A stretch of 64,000 nucleotides of DNA from Morinoia aosen (Eukaryota > Arthropoda > Malacostraca > Amphipoda > Talitridae): assembly GCA_030386875.1 (NCBI GenBank), contig CM059560.1, forward strand, positions 34,094,183 to 34,158,182. The letters run 5' to 3'. This document shows, piece after piece, positions 16,959 to 53,168 of this stretch. Each line of letters begins with the position of its first letter. Position 1 is the first letter of the stretch. The translations under genes were made by a program, and so were the position numbers. Below the pieces are notes generated by a model. The model did no database searches. It saw only the letters and a list, made by a program, of their open reading frames with translations, and had not been told where the DNA came from.

Positions 16959-17921
16959 ATGACTGAATCAGATAATGAAGATCGAGCCCCCACAAAACCC
17001 CTTAGGCTCCCCCCCTTCATTCCAGGGGATGCTCACACATGGTTCAATCAGGTAGAAGCCATGTTTAGGTATCATAGAATAAGGGATGAAACTGACAAGT
17101 TTTATGCCCTCGTTTCCGCAGCTCCCACAGAACTGCTAAATGACTCAAACCAATTGCTAGAAAACCCTCCGGATATCGATCCGTACGGCATCTTGAAAAG
17201 AAAGATCTTGCAGAAGTTGCAGATGTCCGATGCGTACAAACTTAGGAGCCTTGTAGACGCCTCAGCAATTCCATCTGTCTCTGTCTCTTTCTCTCCCACT
17301 TCGTTAGTTAAAGAACTGCGCAAACTTGCTGCGGGTGTTGCCGTAGCTGAGGGATTTCTGAAGGAAGTTTTCATGACTAAGCTTCCTCACAATGTGCGTC
17401 CATTTCTATCGCTAGCAGGCCCTAATCAAACTTTAGAGAAGCTTGCAGAGTCCACTGAGACGGTGATGCGAAATCTAAACGTGTCACAAACACCGCAGGT
17501 AGCTGCTTTAAACCCAGAAACTGCAAATTTTATCCCCTCAAATCAATCCTCAGCAACAATAGATAAGATGCAGCAAGACATCGCTGAGATAAAGCAAGCT
17601 CTCCAGAATTGCAATATAGGTCAGAGCGTAGCTCACATTCAGCAAGGCCCAGGGAGATTCCAAAGCCACCAAAATGCCTACGACTATCCTTATGACTATC
17701 CCTCCAACTATCATCCTTTTCCTCCTCCTCAACGTTTTGATAGAGGTAGATCCTATGATAGGTCAAATCAAGACCGCCGCTTTCGGTCGCGCTCTCGTGA
17801 TGCTAGTAGCAATTTATGCTGGTACCACATGAAATTTGGTGACCAAGCTCGCAAATGTGCCTCTAGACACTGTCCGCGTTATACCGAAATGACTTCGGGA
17901 AACGCGAACAGCGACGCATAG
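16959..17921 (+). CDS. gag: Gag of the CsRn1-type element
   Basis: A 320-residue structural protein that would form the particle around the element RNA in the cytoplasm. The N-terminal half (FIPGDAHTWFNQVEAMFRYH, residues about 20-40, then helical sequence to about 180) is the retrotransposon capsid fold common to arthropod Ty3 Gag. A Pro/Tyr/Arg-rich stretch (residues 215-280) follows, then a single nucleic-acid-binding motif CWYHMKFGDQARKCASRHC (about 286-304). That is C-x2-H-x9-C-x4-C, the unusual C-H-C-C finger typical of CsRn1-clade Gag. ATG at 16959 is the first in a long open frame after the leader. Its stop (TAG, 17919-17921) lies just past the slippery site, and pol follows in the -1 frame. 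Confidence 0.9.
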   Translation: MTESDNEDRAPTKPLRLPPFIPGDAHTWFNQVEAMFRYHRIRDETDKFYALVSAAPTELLNDSNQLLENPPDIDPYGILKRKILQKLQMSDAYKLRSLVDASAIPSVSVSFSPTSLVKELRKLAAGVAVAEGFLKEVFMTKLPHNVRPFLSLAGPNQTLEKLAESTETVMRNLNVSQTPQVAALNPETANFIPSNQSSATIDKMQQDIAEIKQALQNCNIGQSVAHIQQGPGRFQSHQNAYDYPYDYPSNYHPFPPPQRFDRGRSYDRSNQDRRFRSRSRDASSNLCWYHMKFGDQARKCASRHCPRYTEMTSGNANSDA

Positions 17922-17935
17922 TAGCGAGTACTGCG
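17897..17935 (+). promoter_or_regulatory. -1 ribosomal frameshift site, gag to pol
   Basis: GGGAAAC at 17897-17903 is read G GGA AAC in the gag frame, a canonical X XXY YYZ heptamer. A -1 slip here leads straight into the pol frame, which is open back to a stop at 17864-17866. About 11 nt downstream is a possible stem: CGC (17915-17917) and AGTA (17920-17923) pair with TACT (17929-17932) and GCG (17933-17935) around a 5-nt loop, with a 2-nt bulge. Pol has no ATG of its own near its start, which supports expression by frameshift. Confidence 0.75.
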
Positions 17936-20057
17936 TTGCCTCATTCCCAGACTACTCGCTTACTACAGATTCTCGATCCCGTCACCAAATACCGATTTTT
18001 AATAGACACTGGCTCCAGTGTGTCAATTATCCCAGCCACGGTGAAAGACAAAAACAACCCATTGTTGGCGACATTACGCGCCGCAAACGGCACGCCAATT
18101 CCTTGTTACGGTGAAAGAGTATTAGAGTGCAGTCTGGGATTGAGGAGAAAATTCACATTTACCTTCTTGATAGCTGAGGTACAAGAGCCCATAATAGGTG
18201 CTGATTTTCTAGCCAAGTTTGGCATACTTGTAGATGTTAAAAACCGTAGAATTAGGGACGAGGAGACACAGATCTCAATTCCCGCTTGTAGCATAACTAG
18301 AGCTAATGTCTTGCATTCATTCTCCATAGCTTTCAAGGAGGAGTGCATGTTCGAGCAGGTACTTAAAAATTTTCCTGCATTAACAAACCCTAACTTATCT
18401 TCTAATAACATGCAGACATGCACAAAGCACTTCATAGAGACGCAAGGTCCGCCAGTCTACTCTCGTGCAAGGCGATTGCCGCCTGATCGATTGGCGTTAG
18501 CCAAGAAAGAATTTGCGCGCATGCAAGAAAATGGCATTATCCGCAGCTCCAAAAGCCCTTGGGCTAGCCCTCTTTTGCTAGTACCCAAGGCTAACGGTGA
18601 ATTCAGACCGTGCGGGGATTTCCGCAGGTTGAATGCCGTCACTTTACCTGATCGCTACCCTATCCCTTATCTGCACGATTTCAGTGCAAATTTAGAAGGA
18701 GCACAAATTCTCTCAAAAATTGACCTCAAAAGCGCCTTCCATCATATTCCACTTGATGAGAGCGCTATCGCTAAGACCGCGGTAATCACTCCGTTTGGTC
18801 TCTTTGAGTTCCTCAAGATGCCATATGGCTTAAGGAACGCTCCTCAAACGTTCCAAAGGCACATGGCTGAAATTTTCTCTGATCTCACTTTCGCCTATGT
18901 CTATTTAGACGACATCCTAGTGGCATCCACAACCCTGGAGTTGCACAAAGACCATCTTAGGGTCGTTTTTCAAAGACTGTCCGACAATGGACTCCTCGTA
19001 AATCCTGAAAAATGTGAGCTCGGAAAGCCATCACTGATTTATCTAGGTCACGAAATTTCTAGCCTAGGTCTAAAACCTTTGCCTTCCAAAGTAGAAGTGA
19101 TCAAAAACTTTCCTCTTCCACAGACCCAGAAGGAACTAAGAAGGTTCCTAGGTTCTGTTAACTTCTATCATCGTTTCATACGCAACTGTGCTCAAACTTT
19201 AGCCCCCTTGTCTGACTTGCTCGAACCGAAACGAAAAGGCAAATCTATTGAGGTAAAATGGACGGAAGAAGCGCGCAAAGCTTTTGAGGAAATAAAGCAC
19301 AAGTTAGCTTCCGCGACTGAATTATCCTACCCTATTGCTAATGCTGATTTTAGTCTCGTAGTGGACGCCTCGAGTACAGCTGTAGGTGCTGTTTTGCAAC
19401 AACAAGTAGGTACTAATATCTCTCCTCTTGCTTTCTTTTCCAAAAAGCTGTCACCCACTGAGCGTGCTTATAGTGCGTTCGGTAGGGAACTCCTTGCTAT
19501 CTATCTGTCTGTGAGACACTTTCGCTATGCTCTAGAGGCAAGGGAGTTCGTGATCTACACAGATCACAAACCTTTGACCTCAGCGATTAAGATGCCTTCT
19601 GAAAGACATTCCCCAAGAGAGGCTCGACACCTCTCCTATATTAGCCAATTCACCACGGACATCCGCTTCATAAAAGGGTTGGACAATACTGTCGCTGATT
19701 GTCTATCCCGCATCAACACTGTCCAAACCAGTGGTGAAATCCCTTTCGGCAATATTTCCAAGACTCAGAAGGAGGATCCTGAACTTCAGGACCTTCTCAA
19801 ACTTTCTAACACTTCCTCTCTAAAATTAACCTTGGTTGACGGCGTGTACCGTGATGCTGAGCGACTTTCTCGTTTGTATCTTCCTGCGACTCTCCGCAGA
19901 GTAGCTATTCTCCACTATCATTCCTTCTCTCATCCTGGTATTAACCGTACATTGCGTTTGATTTCCGATCGTTTCGTCTGGCCAGCGATGCGTAAGGAGG
20001 TCAAGCAAATTGTGCAAAATTGCCATGCATGTCAGAGTAGTAAAGTGGTGAAACATA
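17897..20057 (+). CDS. pol: Pol of the CsRn1-type element, 5' part (protease, RT, RNase H, start of integrase)
   Basis: Polyprotein in the -1 frame relative to gag; the long open stretch runs from 17867 to the BEL insertion. Aspartic protease: FLIDTGSSVS with DTG codons at 18005-18013 and a later IIGADFL block. Reverse transcriptase: RPCGDFRRLNAV, SKIDLKSAFHHIPL, and catalytic YLDD at 18902-18913. RNase H: LVVDASSTAVGAVL, a catalytic Glu in GRELLAIY, then YTDHKPL. Integrase zinc finger: HYHSFSHPG then CHACQ near 19910-20035. The frame is cut at 20057 by the 5' LTR of the BEL element and would run on into it to a stop at 20087-20089. The rest of integrase resumes at 28463 in the matching phase if the 8410-bp insertion plus duplication is ignored. 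No other break was seen. Confidence 0.93.
20053..20057. repeat. Target-site duplication of the BEL element, left copy
   Basis: ACATA directly before the TG of the 5' LTR, repeated at 28463-28467 after the 3' LTR. A 5-bp duplication is usual for BEL/Pao. Confidence 0.9.
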
Positions 20058-22480
20058 TGTCACGTCGTACAAGACGTGAGAAAATTTGAAGAATTTTGAT
20101 AAATTTATGCGGCAACATTTTTCGGATCCGCGCTTCGTCCGCAAGAATGACGCCAACGTTTTATTTGTTTGAAGTGCGTGGGAGGAACATGTTCCCGGTT
20201 AATATTAAGTTATTGTGTAGTTAGAGAGTGAACTTGAGTGGGAAACTCTTTCGATTTACGTGTTGCCGCGCTAGCTATATTTTCGGGTGTTTTTAACATA
20301 TTTGTGTTTAGATAGCGGTGAACAGCCGGCTTCTAGAGCATTCGAGGATGCTTCCGGTCGCTGGTGAACCACCCACATTAAGCCAGACTAGCCGTCGTAA
20401 CGTGTCATAGCAAGTGCGCTGCAGTGTAATGTTTGGAAATGTCAGGTTCCATTTTGGCAGTACTTTAGAGGAAAAGCGTGTGATTTAACTGATGAACTTT
20501 CCTATCTCTATTTCACTGCCCCAAGTAATTTGTGTTTTTGAATGTGGAGCCAAATTCCGTCACAGATTTGATGCTAAATTTAGAAACTGAAATCAGATGG
20601 CCTTACTATACTTACTGAAGAAAATTGAGTTCTTACTAATTTTATCTCTTTTACTCTGATCAGCTGATACAGAATTTCTTATAACTTATTGGTAAAGAAG
20701 AACATCTTTTGTTTTCAAGTATCATTTAGCAGTCAGCAAAAGTAATTGATGTGAAGTATGACGTAGTAAACTTATGCGAGCTTCCCAAGATACACTTTCT
20801 ATGGCTGAGTATCAAACAACAAAGAAGAAAAAAAAACAAAAAATTTGATTGACTTGCAAAAAGAAACTGATGTTAAGAAGTCTTGGTGTTTTTCTTGTCT
20901 TTGTATTATTTCTTGTCTTTGTATTATTTATAACATTCATTAATAGCAAAGTAAAATAAATTTAGTCGAGTGGCTTCTTACCTATGAGCTGTGCTGGGCA
21001 AGTTGCGCCAGTCAGCAAGGTGGAAGCCTAAAGTCACGGCATTCAGTAGACTGAGAATGGGCGCAGGAACTCGAGACCACTAGCTCATACGATTTGTGTT
21101 CTCAAAGCGACGTTGATAAACGTGTACTTGCCTCTCTCATTCTTTGATAATAGAATTTATTGATAATGGCTGATCTGATAACCTTAGTGACTTGCCCCTG
21201 CTTCAGAGACCTAATTTCTGCTGTCTCTTTTCCACAGATAGGGTAAAGAAAGCCAGAGTAGGCACTTATTTTGCAGACTAGAGTAAGATGTCACAGGTCT
21301 AAACTGAGGGACCTTTCCTCATCGTCTGTAAGTATTTTAGAGTATCCTCTTTTAACTTGTGATGTTACCTAACTCGTCATCTTTTTATATTGTGAAGCAG
21401 TGCGAAAACTAAAACTTGTTGTGCGATCGTCCACCTTTGTTCAAATAAAGTGCTTATTGACTAATGACCGCTGTGTTGAGACTGTTAGATACGGATGTGT
21501 TTTCATGTATATATCCTTTTATGCTTCATCAAAAAGACACTTTGAACATTGGGCGAAAAAAAAGCGATTCATGTATCATTGCCTAGCGTTAGTGACACGA
21601 GTTTTACAATATTCGTGTGCGTATCATAAATGTGTTCTTTCTAAATGTGTTTCTAGCTGTGTGTCTTTGGCAGGGTGTTCTTGATAATGGGTTCCTCGAC
21701 TAGGTACTTATTCTCTTCCTTGCCAACGCAACGGAAACCTTTCTTGTTTCGTGAACTTATTTCCTAGCTTGCTGTTCCTGTGCACCTTGTGCGCAGATTC
21801 CGCGTTCCTCCAACTCCACACTAAATGGTGCCTTCTTCTTTCCTCTCTTGGAACATCTTTGTCGTAGTTGCGGGAGGCTAAAACTTTCCTATATAATGAT
21901 AATAATTGATTCATGGAATATCATTGTGCTATGTCGTTCTGAGGACTATGCCCCGTGACCACTCTTATCGCCCACCGGTCATTGAAATGTCATGCCTAGC
22001 GTTAGCACTACCCGATTGCCTCTTATGTCTCCGGTATGAAGTTTCTTTCTTGTCGTGCGGTGATATATAAATGGTGCCTTCCTCCTTCCTATCCCAGAAC
22101 ATCTTGTCGTGGTTAAGGGAAGCTAAACCCCTCTCGTGTAACAACGAATACTGTGTTATGAATTCCGTCACTAGACTATTATACCTAGTTCTAACATTAT
22201 TTAGCTGTTATCTGTGTTCTGCTCAAGATGTAGGATGCTCCTTTCTCGTCATGCAGCACCGTATAAATTAACTGTTCATTCGACTATAACCTTAAATTGG
22301 GGTTTTTGTCACGTAATTCCTAGCCCGAGTCTGAATCATATTTGTCTGTGCAGATATACGGCTCAACGGGATAAGAAATAAAAAACCTGAAGAGACCTCG
22401 TTTCCCTTTGGGCGTCCTACTGAGTTCCGTTCAATGGCGTGCCGAAGCGAAGATCAATTCCGCTAGCGCACGACATTACA
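20058..22480 (+). repeat. 5' LTR of the BEL element (2.4 kb)
   Basis: Starts TG and ends CA (TTACA), nearly identical to 26039-28462. A stem TCACGTC/GACGTGA with loop GTACAA occupies 20060-20079, right after the TG. It is long for BEL LTRs. Part of the length is a captured repeat at about 21715-21910 that matches the retroposon at 37950-38110, with a second degraded copy of its end at about 22070-22150. Open frames inside the LTR are duplicated exactly in the other LTR and are not genes. Confidence 0.93.
21715..21910 (+). repeat. Captured retroposon 3' part inside the BEL 5' LTR
   Basis: TTCTTGTTTCRTGAACTT through GGAGGCTAAAACTTTC aligns with 37950-38090 at roughly 85% by eye, same orientation, ending in an AAT-rich tail (ATAATGATAATAATT). 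The same segment is in the 3' LTR at about 27697-27892. Confidence 0.7.
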
Positions 22481-22585
22481 GTATATAGACGTCAGCGGAA
22501 GGTGCCCTCCCACGAAGAAGCCCTCCAAAGAGGAGGCCCACAGCCGATTCTCAGCCGCCCGCGGCGAATATCCGAGACCACAGAA

Positions 22586-25500
22586 ATGACCTCTCTCGGA
22601 AGAAAGAGCAAGCCTAGACTTCCACAGCTGGAAGAACAATTCCATACGGAGCTAGCAGCCTTGAACAATCTCCTGAATGGTGCAGTACCACGAGATCTCA
22701 AGACGCCCAGCGAGGTGGATCAAGTCCACGCTGGAATCCGAGCAAAGGCTAAGGCCGTCAAGCGAATCGGAGACCAGCTGGTCCTAGCCCTAGAGGGCTC
22801 GGGAGCCACAGCAGAAGCGACAGCAGTTCGAGACTCACTGACAATCGCCAGAGCCCGCAGGAAGAAGCTGATGGGTTCAATGGGTCGCAGAAGTGAGGAG
22901 CTCCTGGGGAGCTCGTCACGGAGTGCGACAAAGGAACCCTCCCAGCGCAAGAGCTTGAGGTCAAAGAGGACCTCGTCCAAGAACCAGCAGCAAGGCGCTG
23001 CCCATCAGAACAAGCCCCCAAAATCATCATTGGCTGAGAACAGGAACAGACACCGTTCCAACCGTCGGGGCAGAGACCAGGCCAGCCCCAGCCATCGTCG
23101 TCAGAGTCACCAAGGTTCGAGCTATTACAGCCAGAGTCAAGACAGTGAGAGCGATCATAGCCAGAGCCTTCCCAGCGCCAGCTCTCGTCACAAAGACGGC
23201 GAATCCGAGCGCCGCGAGCCCCCTAGCCAAGGCAATAAGCAGATGCTTATTGACATCACTGAAGAGCCATCGGTACTGTTGGCGCAAATCGCCATCGAGA
23301 GGTCGAAATTGAGGAACAGGAACCGAACGAAGAATGATCGGCACTTCGGTGAGCAGAATACTGAGCGCAAAGAGGACCGCACAGGAGCATGGGTCGACCT
23401 AGCCTTCCAGCATCACGTCATCGAACCCGCAGGGGGCACAACGGCGGTTGCGAATGCTTCGCCCCGTGACACCGATCTCGCACCTCCGATGAATCTTTCC
23501 GCACCAGCATTCCAGCCCCGGGCTTCCACCGGCTCACCTGCCGTGGTCTTTGAAACGAAGCCACCAGTGATCGACGGAGCTATGAGGCTCTCGATGATCG
23601 AAGATCTAAAAAAGGCGCCAAGCCAACCTTACGCGGGAGAGGCTCACCTGTTCCACAGATGGTTCGATGCCATCAAGAGAAGGATGGAGAGGCTCGCCGT
23701 GGAGCCCATCGACGCCATCGAGATCCTCACGAACCACACCTGCGGCGAGCCAAGAAGCCTCATTGACGACACCCTGGCAGCTACCTACCTGGACACAGCG
23801 GCCCTGCTCACCCTCATCGTCGAACAACTGAAGACCCGCTTCGCCTCTGAAGACAGGGTAGCCGATAGCCTGCTCGAACGCCTCGCCCAAACATCTGATA
23901 TAAAGGGCATGAAGGGCGACCGCACGGTTGGTCTCAAGCTGCGGAAGTTCAGTGACGCCTGCCTGGCGATTCATCACACAATGCAGCACAACAAAAGCCT
24001 GGCCTTCCTGAACACCGACGTAGGGCTGTCTCCCATCGTTGAGAGGCTACCCTTCTTCGTTCTGGACGCCTGGAGAAGCGAACGAACTAGGCACAGAAGA
24101 CTGTTTGGATCGCTACCTGATTTCGCCAGGTTCTGCGAGTTCATCAAAACGCTGTCGGACACCCAGTGTGATAGTTTTGGGGCATCGAACCTCAACTGGG
24201 TGAGCAATCGACTCGACACGGCCGCCCCCGCTCGCCTCAATCCAAGAGCCTCGCGAGTTCTCTACACGTCCTCAGAGAATCAAACCGGCAGCTGCATTCT
24301 CCACCAGAGTGCACAGCACGCGACAAACTCGTGCCAAACGGTAAGAAAGATGGAATCTCGGAAGAAGAAGGACTTCATACGCGAGCATAATTTATGTTAC
24401 CGTTGTCTAGGCCCTCACTGGGCAAAGCACTGCAATGAAGTTGTGAAGTGCGATGACTGCGGAGCCAGCAGTCACAGCACAGCCGCCCACATCAACTGGC
24501 GAGCAGCTGGAGATTCGAGTGAAACCACTCGTCAGGAGAGACCCAGTCGAGAACCGAGCGACGACAGAGCTCAGAGCGAACTCGGGGAGAGATTGAGAGC
24601 TGTGGCCCTGGCCTCTCGCGTACCCACAGCCGAGGCGGGTGCATGCAGCAAAATTGTTCTGGCAGACGTTATCGACGAGAGCACGGGTCGGTCGTGCCGC
24701 GCCTACGTAATCTTAGATGAGCAAAGCACCACGTCCTTCTGCTCTCCCAAGCTGTTGAACGCCCTCCGCGTGACAACCCCCAAGTCCCACTACGAGCTGG
24801 AAACGCTGACCGATCAATCCGCCGCTCGATACGGCAGACGCGTGTCAGGGCTGAAAATAAAGGGAGTGTCCGAAGACCAAACCTTCGAGCTCCCACCGAT
24901 GTTGGAATGCAACTCCATCCCCGATAGAAAGAGAGCGGTCGCGACCTACGAACGCGTCGCAAGAACCCCGGAGATATCGCACCTCGCTCGGCATTTCTTG
25001 CCCTTGGACAAACACGCAGAAGTTGCGGTGCTCCTGGGGACGGACTGCGGAGACCTACTCTACAGTCACTCCGACAAACAACGCCGCAAGGCTCCGTTCG
25101 TCCACCACACCGCCTTGGGCTGGGCAGTGGTCGGCAAGGTGAACGACGACGTCAGCCCCGAAGGAGAGCACTCTTACACGGTCGCAAGAATCGTAGCCGA
25201 AGTCGCTCTCGAAACCTGTGGCCCGGAGGCGTGCCTTGAACTGTTTTCAGGAAAAGACGCTATTACCCAGCAGCACAGCGATGAGACCTCCCAACCGCGG
25301 CCCCCAGACGACCGCGGAGACCCTGAAAGGACAAAAAACACAAGGGCAGAGGAAGACAATCAAGCGGAAGCCCCGCTAACGACGAGATTTATCGACCAGT
25401 CAGCAACAAACGATGAAATGGACGCTCAGTGCGATCCAGACAGCGCATCACCGAAGCCCAAGAAGAAACAGAAATGGGAGCTCCCGTACCCCGGCGATCC

Positions 25501-26080
25501 GAAGAGAAAGCACGACGCGCACCATGCTGAGCGCACATTTGTTGACAAGAGAGCTCGACAGAACGGGCCAAGCAAAAGGGGAGGCGGCCATGCGGCTCCC
25601 GACCCTCCAGGAAACGCCGAGCACCCACCTCTATCTTCCCTTTACCAGCCTCTCAGTACCGCCTGCGCGACAAGCTGCCGTCGGAATCTGAAGCATCGGG
25701 ACAAGCATGACGCACTCGCCGACGCACGAGGAATGCCGGGCAGCGTCGAGAAAGACCAGGAGACAACACCCGGACCCCTCCAGAGGTCCACCACCCGCCA
25801 GCGACGGAAAGTTCGACGTTGGTCGGGGAAGCAGAGAGGACTCCTCTATGAGTCACGCCCGCGCAGCCGGTGGAAGGCCACCCACGCGTCGCTGAAGACG
25901 ACACCGACGCGTCCCGCGGGGCGAGACGACTGCGACGAGCACGTAGCGGGTGGCGCCCCGCCACTGAACCAGCCCTCAACCAGCGCTCCCCCCCCCCGAA
26001 GGCAGTTATTGGTGGCCAGAGCCACCAAGGGGGGGGAGTGTCACGTCGTACAAGACGTGAGAAAATTTGAAGAATTTTGA
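22586..26080 (+). CDS. BEL/Pao Gag-protease protein with a non-Pol basic tail
   Basis: About 1164 residues from the first in-frame ATG (22586); the frame is open upstream into the 5' LTR, but only from a GTG. Order: a charged N-terminal region with coiled coil; a Ser/Arg/Gln-rich linker; a BEL Gag capsid-like domain (about 23620-24190, around GEAHLFHRWFDAIKRRMERL); three zinc motifs around 24290-24490, the middle one CYRCLGPHWAKHC; then a BEL-type aspartic protease with LDEQSTTSF at about 24711-24740 and the downstream AVLLGTDCGDLLYSH and LGWAVVG blocks. In normal BEL Pol the reverse transcriptase would follow. Here about 290 residues of Arg/Pro/His-rich sequence follow with no polymerase motif, and the frame ends inside the 3' LTR (stop 26078-26080). 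This implies a large internal deletion or replacement. Confidence 0.88.
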   Translation: MTSLGRKSKPRLPQLEEQFHTELAALNNLLNGAVPRDLKTPSEVDQVHAGIRAKAKAVKRIGDQLVLALEGSGATAEATAVRDSLTIARARRKKLMGSMGRRSEELLGSSSRSATKEPSQRKSLRSKRTSSKNQQQGAAHQNKPPKSSLAENRNRHRSNRRGRDQASPSHRRQSHQGSSYYSQSQDSESDHSQSLPSASSRHKDGESERREPPSQGNKQMLIDITEEPSVLLAQIAIERSKLRNRNRTKNDRHFGEQNTERKEDRTGAWVDLAFQHHVIEPAGGTTAVANASPRDTDLAPPMNLSAPAFQPRASTGSPAVVFETKPPVIDGAMRLSMIEDLKKAPSQPYAGEAHLFHRWFDAIKRRMERLAVEPIDAIEILTNHTCGEPRSLIDDTLAATYLDTAALLTLIVEQLKTRFASEDRVADSLLERLAQTSDIKGMKGDRTVGLKLRKFSDACLAIHHTMQHNKSLAFLNTDVGLSPIVERLPFFVLDAWRSERTRHRRLFGSLPDFARFCEFIKTLSDTQCDSFGASNLNWVSNRLDTAAPARLNPRASRVLYTSSENQTGSCILHQSAQHATNSCQTVRKMESRKKKDFIREHNLCYRCLGPHWAKHCNEVVKCDDCGASSHSTAAHINWRAAGDSSETTRQERPSREPSDDRAQSELGERLRAVALASRVPTAEAGACSKIVLADVIDESTGRSCRAYVILDEQSTTSFCSPKLLNALRVTTPKSHYELETLTDQSAARYGRRVSGLKIKGVSEDQTFELPPMLECNSIPDRKRAVATYERVARTPEISHLARHFLPLDKHAEVAVLLGTDCGDLLYSHSDKQRRKAPFVHHTALGWAVVGKVNDDVSPEGEHSYTVARIVAEVALETCGPEACLELFSGKDAITQQHSDETSQPRPPDDRGDPERTKNTRAEEDNQAEAPLTTRFIDQSATNDEMDAQCDPDSASPKPKKKQKWELPYPGDPKRKHDAHHAERTFVDKRARQNGPSKRGGGHAAPDPPGNAEHPPLSSLYQPLSTACATSCRRNLKHRDKHDALADARGMPGSVEKDQETTPGPLQRSTTRQRRKVRRWSGKQRGLLYESRPRSRWKATHASLKTTPTRPAGRDDCDEHVAGGAPPLNQPSTSAPPPRRQLLVARATKGGECHVVQDVRKFEEF
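26011..26038 (+). other. Polypurine tract of the BEL element with adjoining hairpin
   Basis: AAGGGGGGGGAG (26027-26038) directly abuts the 3' LTR and would prime plus-strand DNA. A hairpin GGTGGC-CAGA-GCCACC (26011-26026) sits immediately before it. Confidence 0.75.
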
Positions 26081-28462: not shown

Positions 28463-29669
28463 ACATAATCGTGCAGCGCTGCAGAGTTGTGCATTCACAG
28501 GTCACAAGTTCGACTCTGTCCATCTAGATTTGGTGGGTCCTTTGCCTTTATCGCGTGGTCAGTCTTATTCGTTAACAATCATTGATAGGTTCACACGTTG
28601 GGTTGAGGCTGTCCCTCTTCCTGATACCCAAACTGAGACTGTAGCGCGCGCTTTCATGTCCAACTGGATCTCCAGATTTGGTGTTCCCTTAAGTGTCACA
28701 CATGATCGGGGATCACAATTTACCTCCAAATTTTGGAGTGAGCTTAGCACCGCCTTAGGGTGTGCAAATACATCAACTACCGCTTACCATCCGCAGTCGA
28801 ATGGACTTATTGAGAGAGTCCACAGAGACCTAAAATCGGCATTACGTTGCCTGAACTGCAGCAATGATTGGACTGACAGACTTCCAGTAGTACTACTTAG
28901 CATCCGAAATTTACATAGACAGGATCAGCAATGCACAGCAGCTGAAATGCTCTATGGGCAAACACTTCGTCTCCCTGGCGACATTGTTGACCCAAAACCT
29001 TTGCCTGAATTTTCATCCGCTGACCGTTCCGCATATGTAACCTGTCTAAAAGATTGCATGCGTCAGATCAAGTATGTGGCTCCGCGAATGCCTCAGACTA
29101 AGGACAAACTGGATCCTGCTTTGCAAGACTGCACACATGTGTACGTCCGTAATAACGCTGTCAAACCTACACTCACGCGCCCTTATGATGGCACATTCAA
29201 AATACTCAAACGGACGCCCAAATATTTTCTCCTTGAAAGATCTGGTTCACACGACCCTGTGAGCATTGATCGATTAAAAGTCGCATACACTTCCGATCAT
29301 AGTGTAACTTCTAACTCATCATTCTCTCCGCAGAATTCTCTTTCCACTGAGACTCGATCATATCTACCATCTCAGCTTCCTCAGTTGGCTGTCTTGTTGC
29401 CTAGTCAACTTGAGTGTAATCCTTTCTATGTGCCAGTACATTCAAACCCTATCCCCAAGCCTATCGTAGATTCTAATTCTAGCCCTCTTACTGAAACAGC
29501 GACAAATCTGGATAGACCAAACGAGCCCGCTGCAGTAACTCGTGTTCCTAGCACTCTTGCCGATCTAAATTTGCAGACCCGTTTGGTGAAACTTCCCCGC
29601 TCAGTAACATTTTCCAACTGCCGAACCCGGCATGGTCGCGTAGTTAGACCTCCTTCCCGCTACAAATGA
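28463..29669 (+). CDS. pol: Pol of the CsRn1-type element, 3' part (integrase)
   Basis: Continuation of the interrupted pol, beginning at the second ACATA copy. The DDE integrase core is present with Asp in SVHLDLVGPL, Asp in VTHDRGSQF, and Glu in NGLIERVHR, spaced as in Ty3 integrases. The C-terminal part has the PYDGTFKILKR and SIDRLKVAY blocks typical of CsRn1/Kabuki-type integrase ends, then a low-complexity tail to TGA at 29667-29669. It has no promoter or start of its own and is not expected to be made as a separate protein. No stop or frameshift was seen within it. Confidence 0.92.
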
Positions 29670-44149: not shown

Positions 44150-44716
44150 TGCAAGCATTGCATGGCAGGTGTGGTGTGTGTGGCAGGTGTGATGTGTGTG
44201 GCAGGTGTGGTGTGTGTGGCAGGTGTGATGTGTGTGGCAGGTGTGGTGTGTGTGGCTGGTGGTGTGTTGCGTGGCTGGTGTGGCATGTGGTGTGCGGTTT
44301 GTGTTGCTGGTGTGGGGTCTGGCAGGTGAGGTGTGTGGCTGGTGAGGCGTGTGGCTGGTGAGGCGTGTGGCTGGTGAGGCGTGTGGCTGGTGAGGCGTGT
44401 GGCTGGTGAGGCGTGTGGCTGGTGAGGCGTGTGGCTGGTGAGGCGTGTGGCTGGTGAGGCGTGTGGCTGGTGAGGCGTGTGGCTGGTGAGGCGTGTGGCT
44501 GGTGAGGCGTGTGGCTGGTGAGGCGTGTGGCTGGTGAGGCGTGTGGCTGGTGAGGCGTGTGGCTGGTGAGGCGTGTGGCTGGTGAGGCGTGTGGCTGGTG
44601 AGGCGTGTGGCTGGTGAGGCGTGTGGCTGGTGTGGCGTGTGGCTGGTGTGGCGTGTGGCTGGTGAGGCGTGTGGCTGGTGTGGTGTGTGGCTGGTGTGGT
44701 GTGTGGCTGGTGAGGC
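44150..44716. repeat. 16-bp minisatellite, block 1
   Basis: The unit GGCTGGTGAGGCGTGT repeats about 24 times from about 44333, very uniform in the middle. It is preceded by 18-bp variants (GGCAGGTGTGGTGTGTGT) and some longer units. Because 3 x 16 = 48, one minus-strand frame stays open for 207 codons; that is not a gene. The same unit recurs at 52989-53168. Confidence 0.92.
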
Positions 44717-45541: not shown

Positions 45542-46052
45542 TGTAGTGAAGAGACTTCACTACGTATTGTGTACGGCAACTGTACCGCTGGCGTGCACAT
45601 GGAGCTCCGTCCTACTGCTGCTTGGCTGCAGCTAAAGTGGGCGGCTGCTCGACTGGAGTAGGCAGTTGCGTCGGAACCTTCATGGTGTGCACTTGTCTAC
45701 GAGCAGGCTAATAAAGCGGGTTGCCTGATGTTTGTAAGTGCCCCATGTAGTGCTTGCTCTATTCCTATGCCTATTTTACTGGGTAACGCCTAAGGTGTTT
45801 TGCCAGGGTGGTCAGTCAGCGGTAGAGCCACGGTTTCGTGTACGAAAGACGGCCATCGCGAGACCCGCCCTGAGTCTGTTCTGTGAATTATCATTCCCCT
45901 GTTTTAATATATACTCTTAACTTGTCCGTGCCGTACTTTGACCTCGTATCTGGCCTTAGCTATTTAAGCCTGAGTAGCTATTCCCTGTCTGGTCGGCATC
46001 CTGACAGGTCGGTTTCCAGTAACTAAACGTTATCAGGCTCGTGGTCGTTACA
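45542..46052 (+). repeat. 5' LTR of the second Ty3 element
   Basis: TG to CA (TTACA). It opens with a 9-bp stem GTAGTGAAG/CTTCACTAC with loop AGA. A polyadenylation-type AATAAAG lies at about 45710 and a TATA-like TAATATATA at about 45905. Confidence 0.93.
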
Positions 46053-46054
46053 TT

Positions 46055-46072
46055 TGGTGTCAGGAGTGGGAT
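46055..46072 (+). other. Primer binding site, tRNA-Leu
   Basis: TGGTGTCAGGAGTGGGAT, 2 bp after the LTR, is complementary to the 3' end of animal tRNA-Leu plus CCA over all 18 bases, allowing a known A/G variant. Confidence 0.85.
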
Positions 46073-46202
46073 TTGGCTTCAGATACGGGGACGGTCGGTA
46101 GGATAAGGAGTAGTGCAATAAATTGGGATTTTTAATAAAACTTATTATCGTTTGCTGGCAGTAGACATTTTTTTCGTGGCTTAATTTGGGCTAAGAGTGA
46201 AG

Positions 46203-47156
46203 ATGGAAACAAAATCTGAGTTAGCTGACGTAATGCTTAGTCTCACAGAGGCAATCAAGGGCTTACGTTCAGACAAATTGCCTCCACCGGGGAAGTTTTC
46301 AGGCAAGTCTAGCGACGGTCAGGTCTCGGTTTTCTTGACTAAATTTGAGAATTATGCAAGTTCTAAGTACCAGGAAAACAAGTCGGCTTGGGTTCAGGAA
46401 TTGCCAGAATTTCTTGAGGGGGAAGCCAAGAATATAGTTCAAGCATACGGAACGGGAGCTGACTATGGGGAAGTAAAAAATAGGTTGATTCAGGAACTAG
46501 AGCTTCACGAAAAATTAAGTGATGATGGGTACACAGAATTCTTGCGGGCAGAAAGAAATAGGGGTGAATCACTGACTTGCTATAGTATTAGGCTTGAAAG
46601 GATGGTAGCAAAAGTGGATAGTGTAGGAAAAGAGGGCAAAGAACTCTTGGCTCGAAATAAATTTATTAGTTCCCTAGCACCGGAGCTGGTACGTCGGCTT
46701 AAGTTATTCGTTGGCCAGCAGGAGTCCATTGTACTCAGTGCAGTGGCCCGACTAGCAGCCAGTTTGGAGGCCGATATGACAGCTACCGAGGAAAGAATGG
46801 GGAATAATACTCGAGCGGAACAAATTTACTTAGCGACGCCATACGCGCCAGAAACAAATAATGATAACATTGAACACCAGGAACGCGGGCCGGCCAGATC
46901 AATGCGTTGTTTTCGTTGTGGACAGGAGGGACATTTTGTGCGGGACTGTACACAGCAGGTAGCACATAGAGACAGATTCGGGGAAGTTGTTAGTTCAGAA
47001 CGCGGGTTGAAATGTGCGTATTGTGGCAAGAAGGGACATTTGATGAAGGACTGTCAGGGATTTTTGGAGAAATGCGCAGCTTGTGTATGGTGTGGGGAAA
47101 TCACACATCGTAGTTTCCAGTGTGCGCACAAACCAGGTCGACAGTCGGGAAACTAG
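46203..47156 (+). CDS. gag: Gag of the second Ty3 element
   Basis: About 317 residues from the first ATG (46203) after the leader; a GTG two codons upstream is not needed. It would build the particle and bind the element RNA. The N-terminal 190 residues are helical with the Ty3 capsid pattern (KFSGKSSDGQVSVFLTKFEN, then LPEFLEGEAKNIV and FLRAERNRGESLTCY). Three C-C-H-C zinc knuckles follow: CFRCGQEGHFVRDC, CAYCGKKGHLMKDC and CVWCGEITHRSFQC. The frame ends TCG GGA AAC TAG, so the last three sense codons carry the slippery heptamer. No internal stops. Confidence 0.92.
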   Translation: METKSELADVMLSLTEAIKGLRSDKLPPPGKFSGKSSDGQVSVFLTKFENYASSKYQENKSAWVQELPEFLEGEAKNIVQAYGTGADYGEVKNRLIQELELHEKLSDDGYTEFLRAERNRGESLTCYSIRLERMVAKVDSVGKEGKELLARNKFISSLAPELVRRLKLFVGQQESIVLSAVARLAASLEADMTATEERMGNNTRAEQIYLATPYAPETNNDNIEHQERGPARSMRCFRCGQEGHFVRDCTQQVAHRDRFGEVVSSERGLKCAYCGKKGHLMKDCQGFLEKCAACVWCGEITHRSFQCAHKPGRQSGN

Positions 47157-47188
47157 GTGACTCCGGTATGGAAGAGGCACAGCCGGAG
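47147..47188 (+). promoter_or_regulatory. -1 ribosomal frameshift site with stem-loop
   Basis: GGGAAAC (47147-47153) is read G GGA AAC directly before the gag stop TAG (47154-47156); slipping -1 enters the pol frame. After a 7-nt spacer, CTCCGG (47161-47166) pairs with CCGGAG (47183-47188) around a 16-nt loop. Heptamer, spacing and stem match the usual layout of -1 signals, and pol has no ATG until after the overlap. Confidence 0.85.
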
Positions 47189-49741
47189 CAGTGTCATGAT
47201 AGTCCTCAAAATATTGAGATGGTGCGGCAGAAGCGTGAGGTAGCGGTGGCGTACGCGGTGGTTGTAGAGGTTGGTCAGTTACAGGTTGATGGCCTAGTAG
47301 ATACAGGCGCGTCGATCTCTTTAATTACAGAGGAGCTGCTCCATAGAATTCCGGGCGTTCAAGGAAAACTTTGCGCTTCCGCCGTGAGTAATGTGGTAGG
47401 AATTTCGGGAAACGAAATTAGAACAGAAGGTGAGATATACTTGACAGTAACGATTGGCAGAACTAAGTTCTCAAGGCATGGGTTTTTGGTGATGACTAAG
47501 CCGGTACAGTCGTTCAGTTGTGTGTTGGGCTTAGATTTTCTCGATAGCTTTGAACTAACGTTGAGTGCTTCAGATAGGACTTTGGAGAAAGGAAGTAGTC
47601 AAGATCGTACAAGAATAGCTCGGTTGAAGGTGATGACTTCGCGCAGAGCGGAATTTCCAGTTTTCAGTGCGGCGGAAGTAACTGTACCTTCTAGGCAGAT
47701 GTTGCATTTGTCCGCTCAAGTGAAGAGGGCACCAAATAAATTTGAAGGGTATTTAGAGCCAGTCGATAATGGGACTCGTCCATTGATGGTAGCTTCATCA
47801 GTAAATGTCGTAGACGATGAACATATTCGAGTAGAAGTAATGAACCCATTTGACAGTGATGTGAGGTTAGCCAAGCACACAAGACTAGGTACTTTGGTGG
47901 CTTTGTGTCGGGAAGAAGTAGAGCAGGATGAAGAGATGGGCGAGGTGCCGGGTGACCTTAGCTTGGACGGTACGGATCTGACTGCAGAACAAAGGACGAT
48001 AGTTGCTGAACTGATGACTGCGCATAAAGACGTTTTTGCGACAGATGAGGCAGACGTGGGGTGTACCGAGACAGTGCGGCACCATATAGATGTTCAGGGT
48101 GCAGCGCCTGTAAAACAAAGAAATAGACGTTACCCGGGGCCCATGAAAGAGGAAATCGACCTAGAGGTAAAACTATTAGCGGAAAAAGGTATTATTGAGC
48201 CATCTAAGTCACCATGGTCGTCTCCGTTAGTGCCAGTTAGGAAGAAGAGCGGAAAACTAAGACTTTGTGTGGACTTTAGAATGTTAAATAGCTTGACAAA
48301 ACCAGACTGTTTTCCGCTGCCTCATATAGGAGATACGATAAACAAACTTTCAGGAAATTATTATTTTTCTACGCTTGACTTGAAGTCGGGATATTATCAG
48401 GTGCCTCTGACTGAATCTTCGCGAGAACTGACTGCTTTCTCTACTGGTACGGAACTGTATCAATTCACTAGGCTTCCGTTTGGCGTATGCAACGGGCCGG
48501 CTACGTTCTCACGGCTAATAAGTTTAGTAATTAAGGGGCTACCGAGTGACTCTGTGCAGGCTTACATTGACGATATTTTGGTCGCTAGTGGGACGTTTGC
48601 TGAACATGTCCAGGCGTTGGAGAGGGTGTTCGGCCGGCTTCGAGTTCACGGGCTCAAGCTGAACTTGGAAAAATGTTGTTTGTTTCAAGAGCAGGTCGAT
48701 TACTTGGGTCACTCCGTCGGTAGACTTGGTGTGAGTCCGCTAGAAAAGAATATAGGGGCGATCCAAGAGTTTCCAGTGCCACGAACGGTACGGCAGTTAA
48801 GATCCTTCCTGGGTATGGTGAACTATTATAAGAGTTTTATAAAAGACTCCGCCAATTTACTGCACCCCTTATACCTGGCGACAGCCATGGGGAAATGGGA
48901 ATGGACTGCCGAGTGCCAGCAAGCATTTGAGAACGCGAAAACCGTATTGGTGACCGCTCCAATTCTAGCGTACCCAGACTTTGTGACGGGACAGCCATTC
49001 GTGTTGACGACTGACGCTAGCGGATGGAGAGCTGGCGCGGTGCTGTCTCAGGTGCAAAGCGGCCAAGAAAGAGTGATCGGTTATGCCGGGGTCAGTTTTA
49101 ATAAGGCCCAAATGAGATACAGCGAAACGGACAAAGAGCTAACGGCAATCAGGTTTGCAGTAAATCACTTTAGAATTTACTTGAGTGGTAGGAAATATGT
49201 GATCCGAACGGACCATCAGCCTCTGATATATCTTCACAATATGAAGCGTACCGACGACCGACTGATGAGGACGTTGGCTGACTTGGCTATTGGTCAGTAT
49301 AGCATCGAGTATGTGCCCGGGAAAACTAATGTAGTTGCTGACTGTCTGTCCCGGGTGAATTTTCCTTGGTCAGTTCCAGAGGGAGATGAGAATGCTCCCG
49401 AGCCAGAATGTGGGGAATACCAGGTAGCCGAAGTAGAGGGGGGCCCAAATTCTTTGTTTGTGGCATTGAGCCGAGCCTCGGGTCTGGGAGACGCGTTGAC
49501 GCTCCGAGAGCAGGCGATAGACAGATTATTGCAGGAACCCAAAGCATTCGGTAGGACTGGTAAGGCCGCGGATCGTAGGATGATTTCGAGTTGGAAAAAT
49601 CCGGATGTTTTCCCTCCATGGGAGGCTCTCGTGGCGTTTGCGCAGTTATTTGACTTGAGAGTGGAGGTGGTTTGCAAGCCAGGAGGGTTGGTTGTTGCAA
49701 ATCCTGTGGGGGAGAAGGGAACTGTTAAACTGGAATGTTAA
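47147..49741 (+). CDS. pol: Pol of the second Ty3 element, part before the in-frame stop
   Basis: Polyprotein in the -1 frame to gag. Protease: LVDTGASISLI with DTG at 47300-47308 and VLGLDFL. Reverse transcriptase: LRLCVDFRMLNSLT, STLDLKSGYYQVPL, and catalytic YIDD at 48562-48573. RNase H: LTTDASGWRAGAVLS, a Glu in ETDKELTAI, then RTDHQPLIYL. Then a region not usual in Ty3 Pol: PNSLFVALS (49445-49471), LREQAIDRLLQ, a Trp-containing stretch and LVAFAQLFDLRVEVV. This fits the core of an OTU-type cysteine protease, but with Ser (codon 49451-49453) where the nucleophile Cys is expected. A TAA at 49739-49741 ends the frame in that domain. The same frame continues straight on in the next entry. 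Confidence 0.92.
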   Translation, partial: GKLGDSGMEEAQPEQCHDSPQNIEMVRQKREVAVAYAVVVEVGQLQVDGLVDTGASISLITEELLHRIPGVQGKLCASAVSNVVGISGNEIRTEGEIYLTVTIGRTKFSRHGFLVMTKPVQSFSCVLGLDFLDSFELTLSASDRTLEKGSSQDRTRIARLKVMTSRRAEFPVFSAAEVTVPSRQMLHLSAQVKRAPNKFEGYLEPVDNGTRPLMVASSVNVVDDEHIRVEVMNPFDSDVRLAKHTRLGTLVALCREEVEQDEEMGEVPGDLSLDGTDLTAEQRTIVAELMTAHKDVFATDEADVGCTETVRHHIDVQGAAPVKQRNRRYPGPMKEEIDLEVKLLAEKGIIEPSKSPWSSPLVPVRKKSGKLRLCVDFRMLNSLTKPDCFPLPHIGDTINKLSGNYYFSTLDLKSGYYQVPLTESSRELTAFSTGTELYQFTRLPFGVCNGPATFSRLISLVIKGLPSDSVQAYIDDILVASGTFAEHVQALERVFGRLRVHGLKLNLEKCCLFQEQVDYLGHSVGRLGVSPLEKNIGAIQEFPVPRTVRQLRSFLGMVNYYKSFIKDSANLLHPLYLATAMGKWEWTAECQQAFENAKTVLVTAPILAYPDFVTGQPFVLTTDASGWRAGAVLSQVQSGQERVIGYAGVSFNKAQMRYSETDKELTAIRFAVNHFRIYLSGRKYVIRTDHQPLIYLHNMKRTDDRLMRTLADLAIGQYSIEYVPGKTNVVADCLSRVNFPWSVPEGDENAPEPECGEYQVAEVEGGPNSLFVALSRASGLGDALTLREQAIDRLLQEPKAFGRTGKAADRRMISSWKNPDVFPPWEALVAFAQLFDLRVEVVCKPGGLVVANPVGEKGTVKLEC

Positions 49742-49800
49742 GGAGGCGTGCATTTTAATGTTATCATAGCAGGTATACCAGCAGAAAGGGTCAATGTAGC
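49430..49800 (+). other. OTU-like domain split by an in-frame TAA
   Basis: What is seen: PNSLF then, about 100 residues later in the same frame and 9 nt past a TAA stop, VHFNVII. In OTU proteases the nucleophile sits in an N-C-L-F-type block and the catalytic His in an H-[YF]-N-type block at about this distance. The intervening LR...L and W...L.A.A....V patterns also fit. So both ends of an OTU fold are present, with Cys replaced by Ser and a stop between them. Whether the stop is a recent lesion or is read through cannot be told from one copy. Confidence 0.65.
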
Positions 49801-51685
49801 AGCGCCTCACGGGCAAGGTAGCCAGGAGGGTGCTTGCCAGTTGGCTGACCTTCGGTTAGGAGAGGAAATACAGATGTTCGCGCCGCATCAACTGCAGGAC
49901 CAGAGGTTGGTGAGGGTGCGCAAGGCTCTGGAAAAGAAGGAAAAAGACCCAGCATTAGGATATTTGCGACGACATTTTAATAGCTTAGTGTTACATAGCG
50001 ATGCCATATGTTACAAATATAAGCTAGGGGGTGAGGAAAAGTTCCTACCAGTGATTCCAGACAGTCAATTGAAGGGCTTAGTTACACAGTTTCATGAACA
50101 TGTAGCACATGCGGGGCAGGCTAAGGTTAGCAAGGCATTCCGGCGGTGTTACTTTCATCCCAGCCCATACAAGACTATCAAGGAAGTGATAAGAGAATGT
50201 CGGACGTGCCAGTTGCATAAAGGAGTAAGTGCAAAAGATTACCCGCTGTATGGGTTGAGTGCTAAGTGCACGGCGCCGTATGATATTTATGCGGTTGATT
50301 TGATGCAATTGCCGCGTACTGCCAGAGGACATATAGGATTATTGGTGGGTATTGATTTATGGTCCAAATTTGGACACGCAATACCTATACGTTCAAAAGC
50401 TGCGCCGGGAGTTGCGCGTGCATTGGAGTATGGTATATTGGCTAGTTGCCCTAGAACCCCTAAAATTTTGCGGTCCGACAATGGTCCCGAGTTTCGAGCT
50501 AGGTTGTTCGGACAATTGTTGGACAGGTACGGGGTGCGGCATGAGCGCTCAATCGCCTATGCGCCGCATACCAATGGAGCGGTGGAGAGACTCAACCGGA
50601 CCATCAAGGAGAGACTCGCCACGGCCTGCGCTGGTAACCCTGGGAGCTGGGATCTGGAAATAGCAAGAGTGATGTCCCAGTACAATAGACTTACCCACAG
50701 TGAGACCGGTCGAGCCCCGTGTGAATTCTTTGTGAAGGAGGCTGCGGTGCCAGATCTGCCAAGGTCACCCCGGATGTGGCGACCCGCTGGACCGAAGTTC
50801 CGACCGTTCGCAGTGGGAGAACGGGTCCTGCGACGGGTACCTTACGCACGGGAGGACGACAGACACAAACTCACCCCGCAGTTCCAGGGTTCCTACGAGG
50901 TGCTGGAGGTTGACAGGAACCAGGTCACCTATAAGATACGGGACCTGCAGCGGCGAAGGGCTCCCTTCAAGGTGCACGTGAGGCAATTGAAGAAATATTA
51001 TGGAAACGACATGGGTCAGGACCAGCCAGCGCAACTCGAGAGGAGGAACGAAGCAGAAGGTCTGCCGCAAAGGCAGCCACGCAAGAGAACCCGTCGAGAA
51101 GTGGGGCCAAAGGAAGACGGGGTTGGGGCAGCAGGAGAGATGCAAGAGGACCAAGTGGCTCCCGTGGAGGATGAGTGGTTGGGTCGCCCAATTCATCCGC
51201 TGCCACCATTTCCGGCAACACAGCAGGGGGAGGTGATGGGCGACGACACCAGCGGGGACTTCTCGAAATTTCTCGGACAATACCCGGATCTTCCGCCGTG
51301 CGAGGAGAGCCTTGACTTTTCGGGGTTCATCGGCCAGTACCCGGATCCCCCTCTGTTGCGAATGAGGAGAACGGAGGTGCCGGAAGCAGAACGCGGACCT
51401 CTCGTCTTGAGTGGGGGAGAGGCGAGTGAAAGCGGAGCTGCAGCAGAAGGCACCCCCGATTTTTCAGGTTTCGGGGGGTGGTCGCCATTGGAGAGAGCGC
51501 GCCCAGATGTACGAACTTCTACCCCGGCGGAGGAAGGTGACGAAAGGGGTAGCGACGCAGGGTGTTTGGAGGTAACAGAGGTGAGTGCCGGTGATAATAC
51601 TTGGTGGAGAACGGAACCTTCGGAGCCAGAAGATGAAATATTGCCTCGATTAAGACCAAAAAAGAGGTTAGATTATAAATGCTGA
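49742..51685 (+). CDS. pol: Pol of the second Ty3 element, part after the stop (integrase and tail)
   Basis: In the same frame as the preceding pol part, directly after its TAA. It starts with the OTU-like His block (VHFNVII). Integrase: a zinc finger with HEHVAHAG and CRTCQ (about 50090-50215). Catalytic residues: Asp in YAVDLMQL (about 50297), Asp in RSDNGPEF (about 50477), Glu in GAVERLNR (about 50585). A C-terminal part has HKLTPQFQGSYEVLEV and PFKVHVRQLKKY, the usual binding domain of Ty3 integrase. A 230-residue acidic/Pro-rich tail follows with three versions of the motif DFS[GK]F[IL]GQYPD (about 51258, 51310 and 51459). Ends TGA at 51683-51685. No lesion was seen in this part. Confidence 0.9.
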   Translation, partial: GGVHFNVIIAGIPAERVNVAAPHGQGSQEGACQLADLRLGEEIQMFAPHQLQDQRLVRVRKALEKKEKDPALGYLRRHFNSLVLHSDAICYKYKLGGEEKFLPVIPDSQLKGLVTQFHEHVAHAGQAKVSKAFRRCYFHPSPYKTIKEVIRECRTCQLHKGVSAKDYPLYGLSAKCTAPYDIYAVDLMQLPRTARGHIGLLVGIDLWSKFGHAIPIRSKAAPGVARALEYGILASCPRTPKILRSDNGPEFRARLFGQLLDRYGVRHERSIAYAPHTNGAVERLNRTIKERLATACAGNPGSWDLEIARVMSQYNRLTHSETGRAPCEFFVKEAAVPDLPRSPRMWRPAGPKFRPFAVGERVLRRVPYAREDDRHKLTPQFQGSYEVLEVDRNQVTYKIRDLQRRRAPFKVHVRQLKKYYGNDMGQDQPAQLERRNEAEGLPQRQPRKRTRREVGPKEDGVGAAGEMQEDQVAPVEDEWLGRPIHPLPPFPATQQGEVMGDDTSGDFSKFLGQYPDLPPCEESLDFSGFIGQYPDPPLLRMRRTEVPEAERGPLVLSGGEASESGAAAEGTPDFSGFGGWSPLERARPDVRTSTPAEEGDERGSDAGCLEVTEVSAGDNTWWRTEPSEPEDEILPRLRPKKRLDYKC

Positions 51686-52331
51686 GTGTCTACTTCGATA
51701 CTGCTTGGATTGTTTTTGTTTCAGGCCCGGGGATCTGTTGCTGCAGGCGATGGGCCAACGTAGCACGGGGTGCGATGGTCCGACCTGGGCTGCCTGTTTG
51801 TGTCCCGACCCTGCAGATGTCTTCTGAGGCGCGGCCGGTGCTGATGGTTGCCTGCCATCGCAACCCGACTGGTGTGAAGCCCTTTGGATGTCCGGGTCGG
51901 ATGTGACGGGCGGAGGCGCATACTCTTCAGAGATCATGGTCTCTGTTGCGAGCTGGGAACGCCATGGGAGGTGGACTTCTGCCGCCTGTTTGGCTGCTAA
52001 AGTGAAGCCTGCTCAGCGCCGGTTGCAGTATGGAGGAGCAGTCGCCGGTGTGCAATCTGCAGTCGTGTCGGCAGGCACGCGGCAAATCTGCAGCCGGACG
52101 TTTCGTCGTCACCTGCGAGACTGGCGGGAACTTGGAAGACAGAAGAACCGGATAGTGTTATCAATTTTAGAACAATGATGTACATAGTAAACCTTTTAGT
52201 AGTTGTCCAGTTGTCACGTGCTAGATGCATGTTTTCCTTAATGTATAACTTTTTAATCTTGTGCGGTAATTTGAGGATATTAGAGGCTTTAGTTGGAGCG
52301 ATGAGTTCTTACTAAATTAAGAAGGATGTAG
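51686..52331 (+). other. 3' untranslated part and weak polypurine tract
   Basis: Stop-rich in the pol frame. The open frames at 51679-52178 are short and unconserved in appearance. The last bases before the LTR (AAGAAGGATGTAG) are purine-rich but a poor polypurine tract. Confidence 0.5.
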
Positions 52332-52848
52332 TGTAGTGAAGAGACTTCACTACGTATTGTGTACGGCAACTGTACCGCTGGCGTGCACATGGAGCTCCGT
52401 CCTACTGCTGCTTGGCTGCAGCTAAAGTGGGCGGCTGCTCGACTGGAGTAGGCAGTTGCGTCGGAACCTTCATGGTGTGCACTTGTCTACGAGCAGGCTA
52501 ATAAAGCGGGTTGCCTGATGTTTGTAAGTGCCCCATGTAGTGCTTGCTCTATTCCTATGCCTATTTTACTGGGTAACGCCTAAGGTGTTTTGCCAGGGTG
52601 GTCAGTCAGCGGTAGAGCCACGGTTTCGTGTACGAAAGACGGCTATCGCGAGACCCGCCCTGACCCTGAGTCTGTTCTGTGAATTATCATTCCCCTGTTT
52701 TAATATATACTCTTAACTTGTCCGTGCCGTACTTTGACCTCGTATCTGGCCTTAGCTATTTAAGCCTGAGTAGCTATTCCCTGTCTGGCCGGCATCCTGA
52801 CAGGTCGGTTTCCAGTAACTAAACGTTATCAGGCTCGTGGTCGTTACA
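52332..52848 (+). repeat. 3' LTR of the second Ty3 element
   Basis: Same as the 5' LTR except two single-base changes and a 6-bp tandem duplication (CCCTGA twice near 52660). Followed by CTTG (52849-52852). Confidence 0.93.
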
Positions 52849-52988: not shown

Positions 52989-53168
52989 CAAGGCGTGTGG
53001 CAGGTGAGGCGTGTGGCTGGTAAGGAGTGTGGCTGGTGAGGCGTGTGGCTGGTGAGGCGTGTGGCTGGTGAGGCGTGTGGCTGGTGAGGCGTGTGGCTGG
53101 TGAGGCGTGTGGCTGGTGAGGCGTGTGGCTGGTGAGGCGTGTGGCTGGTGTGGTGTGTGGCTGGTGGC
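52989..53168. repeat. 16-bp minisatellite, block 2
   Basis: About eleven copies of the same GGCTGGTGAGGCGTGT unit as block 1, beginning with an AAGGCGTGTGGCAGG variant. Open frames on the minus strand are artefacts of the repeat. Confidence 0.9.

Follow-up and report, generated by a model that had tools for sequence, protein, structure and literature searches.

Why would the replication polyprotein of a retrotransposon carry a domain of the ubiquitin system, and what could such a domain do once residues of its active site have been replaced? This question is raised by a long terminal repeat (LTR) retrotransposon of the Ty3 type in the amphipod Morinoia aosen, located in a stretch of 64,000 nucleotides (NCBI GenBank assembly GCA_030386875.1, contig CM059560.1, positions 34,094,183 to 34,158,182 of the forward strand), which we call the window throughout. 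An initial annotation, made from the sequence alone, had proposed an OTU-like protease domain between RNase H and integrase of the Pol protein, at 49430..49800. We find that this region of about 120 residues is a predicted OTU-fold domain and, as judged from profiles and structure models, a standing part of Pol in one Ty3-type lineage. The answer that we favour, with some reserve, is a retained pseudoprotease with a non-catalytic binding role. The features concerned are:

49439..49798, forward strand: OTU-fold domain of about 120 codons, interrupted by a TAA (from the motif pair, the family profile match to OTUD3 and the fold of relatives)
49439..49459, forward strand: GGPNSLF, the former OTU nucleophile loop, with Ser (49451-49453) where OTU proteases have Cys, and Gly where they have Asp (family alignment; alignment to OTUD3)
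49739..49741, forward strand: in-frame TAA (codon in the family alignment; 0/40 siblings)
49742..49759, forward strand: G-G-V-H-F-N with the conserved His (49751-49753) and the following Asn (family and sibling alignments)

The domain is preceded by RNase H (the Pfam RT_RNaseH match ends at residue 723 of the 873-residue frame) and followed by the integrase H2C2 match, which belongs to the downstream frame. The annotated limits marked the right region, while 49439-49798 are better ones. Likewise, the motifs N-S-L-F and H-F-N, reported to lie about 100 residues apart, are indeed in the same frame with a distance of 100 codons, but the TAA splits the open frame of the window copy between them. 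This motif pair is not a chance occurrence, since seven other, distinct Pol proteins of the Ty3 type (P0001-P0007) have it too; absence of the region from other family members had been named as evidence against the proposal, and the domain is present in all seven. Homology was computed with a family profile (window copy plus the seven relatives), which matches human OTUD3 in the PDB with an E value of 8.8e-9, and a second profile (A3) also matches OTUD3 (E 4.3e-6). AlphaFold (AF2) models of the P0001 and P0003 domains have OTU domains, those of OTUD3 and other OTU proteases, as their best Foldseek and VIA matches; the fold evidence thus comes from these two relatives, not from the interrupted copy of the window.

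Could a linker in Pol have come to resemble OTU by chance or convergence? When the window piece is compared with Pfam by itself, no family is found at the domain, Pfam OTU (PF02338) was matched in only two of the eight family pieces (best E 0.029), and the family-profile search placed a designed repeat protein (E 0.002) between its two OTU matches. Set against the profile match to OTUD3 and two models with OTU domains as their best solved matches, such an origin is very improbable. Since Pfam alone is empty there, the OTU nature of the window piece becomes apparent only with the family profile and the fold. The proposed domain and its position were therefore borne out by the profile and structure checks suggested at the outset, with Pfam alone being weak. 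Scans of viral_contigs revealed no relative of the domain, and a search begun from P0001 returned P0001 only. As a separate observation, six of the first seven matches of the P0001 domain model among viral predicted structures were named baculovirus VP80/P80 (best E 4.5e-6), and from these models VP80/P80 seem to hold an OTU-like fold.

To describe the family within the source genome (1.99 Gb, 29 contigs), the best 150 of 605 candidate places were scored. Over 103 residues, 34 of these 150, including that of the window, are 100% identical; the retrotransposon family is thus abundant and recent. Forty siblings were picked by hand from the 150 places, spanning identities of 97-100%, and 2.1 kb of each was read; this sample leans to intact copies, with open frames of at least 1439 amino acids in 39/40.

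The former active site is altered in all members seen. In the computed alignment, GDGNCLF of OTUD3 lies over GGPNSLF of the Pol domain. The nucleophile position is occupied by Ser in 8/8 family members (window and P0001-P0007) and by Cys in none; consequently, the Ser first noted in this copy is the norm. The residue three positions before it is Gly, without Asp, in 8/8, and the Gly that follows this Asp in GDGNC of OTUD3 is replaced by Pro, again in 8/8. This Pro would presumably take away a backbone NH near the expected oxyanion hole. The catalytic His near the C-terminus, which in the window copy lies downstream of the TAA, and the Asn/Asp after it are kept in all eight members. The longest stretch of the domain without any variation across the family is the loop that contains Ser. 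Ser and His were found in 40/40 siblings, GPNSLF is complete in 39/40 (L044 is altered at Leu), and GGPNSLF is present in all 28 loci returned by two genome searches, which partly hit the same places.

For OTU proteases, the triad is given as Asp, Cys and His (PMC4654579). Of these three residues, as named for Drosophila OTUs, the Pol domain thus lacks two, with Ser in place of Cys and Gly in place of Asp. Because Asp is lost as well as Cys, cutting is unlikely, and we infer that the domain does not cut ubiquitin. The initial annotation had envisioned a working deubiquitinase that shields element proteins, which in that form hardly agrees with both replacements. Its more careful wording, that this copy may be inactive or that the domain has shifted to a binding role, gains support as a possibility but was understated, as all members seen share the change and this copy has, in addition, a stop inside its domain. 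Two Drosophila proteins provide a close parallel: CG3251 (D37, S40, H143) and Otu carry Ser, did not cleave ubiquitin chains and gained no activity with Cys (PMC4654579). Both resemble the Pol domain in the Cys-to-Ser replacement with His kept, but they are host genes, and CG3251 retains the triad Asp that the Pol domain has lost.

Nevertheless, Ser alone does not settle activity, because PMC12263153, citing earlier work, reports that Drosophila Otu, when purified from S2 cells, has deubiquitinase activity. One might therefore envision an active serine-type OTU hydrolase, in which Ser-His-Asn/Asp would cut conjugates of ubiquitin or of ubiquitin-like proteins, or would cleave Pol itself at a site between RNase H and integrase. 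The retention of these residues throughout the family and of Ser and His in all siblings, the invariant loop and the activity of Otu, itself a Ser-type protein (PMC4654579), would agree with such an enzyme. As general background, PMC10318531 states that conserved-Ser families in papain-like folds are rare but observed. The replacements of the triad Asp by Gly and of the next Gly by Pro, compared with GDGNC of OTUD3, and the inactivity of Ser-type CG3251 and Otu in PMC4654579 argue against it, and we consider it quite unlikely. Similarly small is the probability we give to the evolutionary version of this idea, in which the Ty3 lineage converted a cysteine deubiquitinase into a Ser-His-Asn/Asp enzyme within Pol, with ubiquitin-like conjugates or the element's own polyprotein as substrates.

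If catalysis is lost, is the domain still under selection? The set analysed comprised the window copy and 39 siblings (L042 was left out for an upstream difference). The computed ratio of nonsynonymous to synonymous diversity (piN/piS) was 0.19 for the OTU-fold domain, 0.03 for reverse transcriptase (RT), 0.08 for RNase H, 0.04 for the linker between RNase H and the OTU-fold domain, and 0.14 after the domain. Within the domain, variants shared by at least two sequences were 13 synonymous and 5 nonsynonymous, and singletons 15 synonymous and 20 nonsynonymous. With 76% nonsynonymous sites, shared variants depart from neutrality (p 2.5e-5) and singletons do so weakly (p 0.012), while no significant difference is seen between the shared variants of the domain and those of RT (p 0.07). 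All three p-values assume independence of the variants and refer to copies picked by hand that lean to intact ones. The variation fits purifying selection and the domain appears to be kept, in line with the check proposed at the outset. However, the upstream linker is as constrained as RT, a warning that at this depth a low piN/piS is not specific to domains.

The same data bear on the idea that the domain is a folded spacer only, kept between RNase H and integrase for the folding or geometry of Pol and without any partner. Its constraint is weaker than that of RT or RNase H, and when family members are compared with P0001, its identity (29-36%) resembles that of the protease (27-33%) and not that of RT (52-61%); RNase H reaches 53-68% and integrase 38-53%. 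The 40-residue piece before the domain (30-42%) is no less alike than the domain itself. On the other hand, a spacer has no need for an invariant GGPNSLF loop with a matching His, and the linker on the integrase side is just 15-20% identical. We regard a mere spacer as unlikely, yet worth keeping in mind.

Taking these lines together, we hold that a retained OTU-fold pseudoprotease is the rather more probable explanation, with binding, not cutting, as the probable function of the domain. Such a role is consistent with a groove that is conserved while its triad is incomplete: the retained active-site groove might accommodate ubiquitin, a ubiquitin-like protein or some partner from the host, and such binding could tether, shield or position the RT-integrase polyprotein. 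Several points weigh against this explanation. The conserved GGPNS loop and His could instead reflect the retention of a catalytic site, and the reported activity of Otu makes Ser no proof of inactivity (PMC12263153). Ser-type CG3251 showed no significant ubiquitin-chain binding (stated as data not shown in PMC4654579), which weakens the version with ubiquitin as partner. Constraint on the domain is weaker than that on RT and RNase H, and even than that on the short preceding linker. We classify the domain as a homologue of the OTU fold and a candidate pseudoprotease, and do not call it an OTU cysteine protease. What makes it interesting is that a fold of the ubiquitin system is part of the polyprotein with which a Ty3-type retroelement replicates, and that selection seems to keep it although the canonical active site is lost. 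Should its partner be ubiquitin or a ubiquitin-like protein, it would illustrate how a retroelement may deal with the host's ubiquitin control while having no enzyme for this; should it still be able to cut, it would represent an OTU of the serine type. As the family is abundant and recent, the question of function is testable on natural proteins.

What does the stop codon mean for this copy? The element that carries it is made up as follows:

45542..46052, forward strand: 5' LTR (TGTAGT...GTTACA), from LTR-LTR local alignment, with a CTTG target-site copy just before
46197..47156, forward strand: gag frame with CCHC zinc knuckles (open reading frame (ORF); zf-CCHC E 1.6e-11)
47120..49741, forward strand: pol frame part 1 with aspartic protease, RT, RNase H and the first approximately 100 residues of the OTU-fold domain, ending at the TAA (ORF; RVP 5.4e-7, RVT_1 2.8e-34, RT_RNaseH 1.6e-27)
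49742..51685, forward strand: pol frame part 2 with the end of the OTU-fold domain, integrase zinc finger and core, and C-terminal tail (ORF; Integrase_H2C2 8.3e-11, rve 1.4e-9)
52332..52848, forward strand: 3' LTR, from LTR-LTR local alignment, with a CTTG target-site copy just after

The element is 7.3 kb long, its LTRs have TG..CA ends and the CTTG duplication is found on both sides; LTR ends and target-site copies were read from the printed sequence context. In the LTR alignment, 513 of 522 columns are identical, with three mismatches and six gap columns (the columns take in a few flanking bases). The copy at 45542-52848 is thus young. Pfam recovers the order protease, RT, RNase H and integrase in the window Pol, and the label Ty3-type refers to this order and these matches. 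The pol gene opens at 47120 in a frame other than that of gag, and the same frame resumes past the TAA to 51685.

The TAA, which the initial annotation had not mentioned, lies four codons ahead of the conserved His and is the sole stop from 47120 to 51685. Its solitary position in a young copy speaks for a programmed stop or readthrough site, which would give a Pol product that ends inside the OTU-fold domain. Yet it occurs in 0/40 siblings read, none of which has any stop in the domain, and none of P0001-P0007 has a stop at this position. Irrespective of the choice by hand, the first 103 residues are interrupted at just one of the 150 sibling places that were scored (by a TAG), and a search with the whole P0003 domain gave one stop (a TGA) and no TAA inside the match among 150 scored places. 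A programmed stop is therefore barely credible, and the TAA is a private defect of the window copy, not part of the design. The P0003 search also served as a hunt for a second, more distant OTU-bearing family, and the best 150 scored places were all 34-36% identical to the query; many coincide with sibling places already found, and further families could lie beyond these 150. Open frames of siblings are often near 1517 or near 1830 amino acids, a gap of about the size of gag, so that gag and pol may share a single frame in some copies.

How does the arrangement compare with known systems? Human OTUD3 (PDB 4bou) shares the fold, the alignment over the whole domain, and His with the following Asn/Asp, but has a Cys nucleophile with Asp three residues before it, where the Pol domain has Ser and Gly and is embedded in a retrotransposon Pol. 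Ginger1 DNA transposases likewise join OTU to a Gypsy-type integrase in a mobile element, but their OTU cysteine protease domain, as it is called, lies C-terminal to integrase in a cut-and-paste DNA transposon (PMC2836005). Membership of the window element in Ginger1 was rejected on account of OTU before integrase, the presence of RT and direct LTRs. Helentrons also contain an OTU-like cysteine protease, but are rolling-circle DNA transposons with another protein context (PMC6431247). An orchid Ty3/Gypsy lineage has fixed an accessory domain as well, in this case an AlkB m6A demethylase that is active in vitro, forms an additional ORF, occurs in plants and is unrelated to OTU (PMC9289625). In the parts consulted, PMC6338049 on retrotransposon accessory domains names no OTU, PMC4640811 deals with Ulp1-type proteases without the term, and in PMC6875170 and PMC2577118 OTU stands for operational taxonomic unit. 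Thus, OTU in DNA transposons and Ser-type OTUs in flies are already known, while searches confined to open-access PubMed Central gave no description of an OTU domain placed between RNase H and integrase in Ty3 Pol; database proteins with OTU and RT may exist.

Further observations concern the Pol tail and the surroundings of the element. After integrase, the tail (51257-51472) contains repeated [DES]F-x-GF motifs, two each in six of seven tails (window, P0001, P0004-P0007) and none in P0003, while the P0002 tail was not delimited. In each of the six, 0/2000 shuffles reach this count. We take these motifs to resemble adaptor gamma-ear binding motifs. An STP motif is found in 7/7 tails, and Cys occurs among the last five Pol residues (51656-51685 in the window) in six of seven delimited tails (window, P0001, P0003-P0006), not in P0007; judging by position, these Cys could be lipid-anchor sites. 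Outside the LTRs, 16-base minisatellite arrays with a common unit lie on both sides, at 44271-44716 (27.9 copies) and 52991-53166 (11.0 copies). Another Ty3-type element was recognized by eye from the ORF list at 16959-20089, 22439-26080 and 28530-29669. Its pol frame stops in the integrase region, integrase-like sequence appears again at 28530 and a long gag-like ORF lies between, so that it possibly holds a nested insertion.
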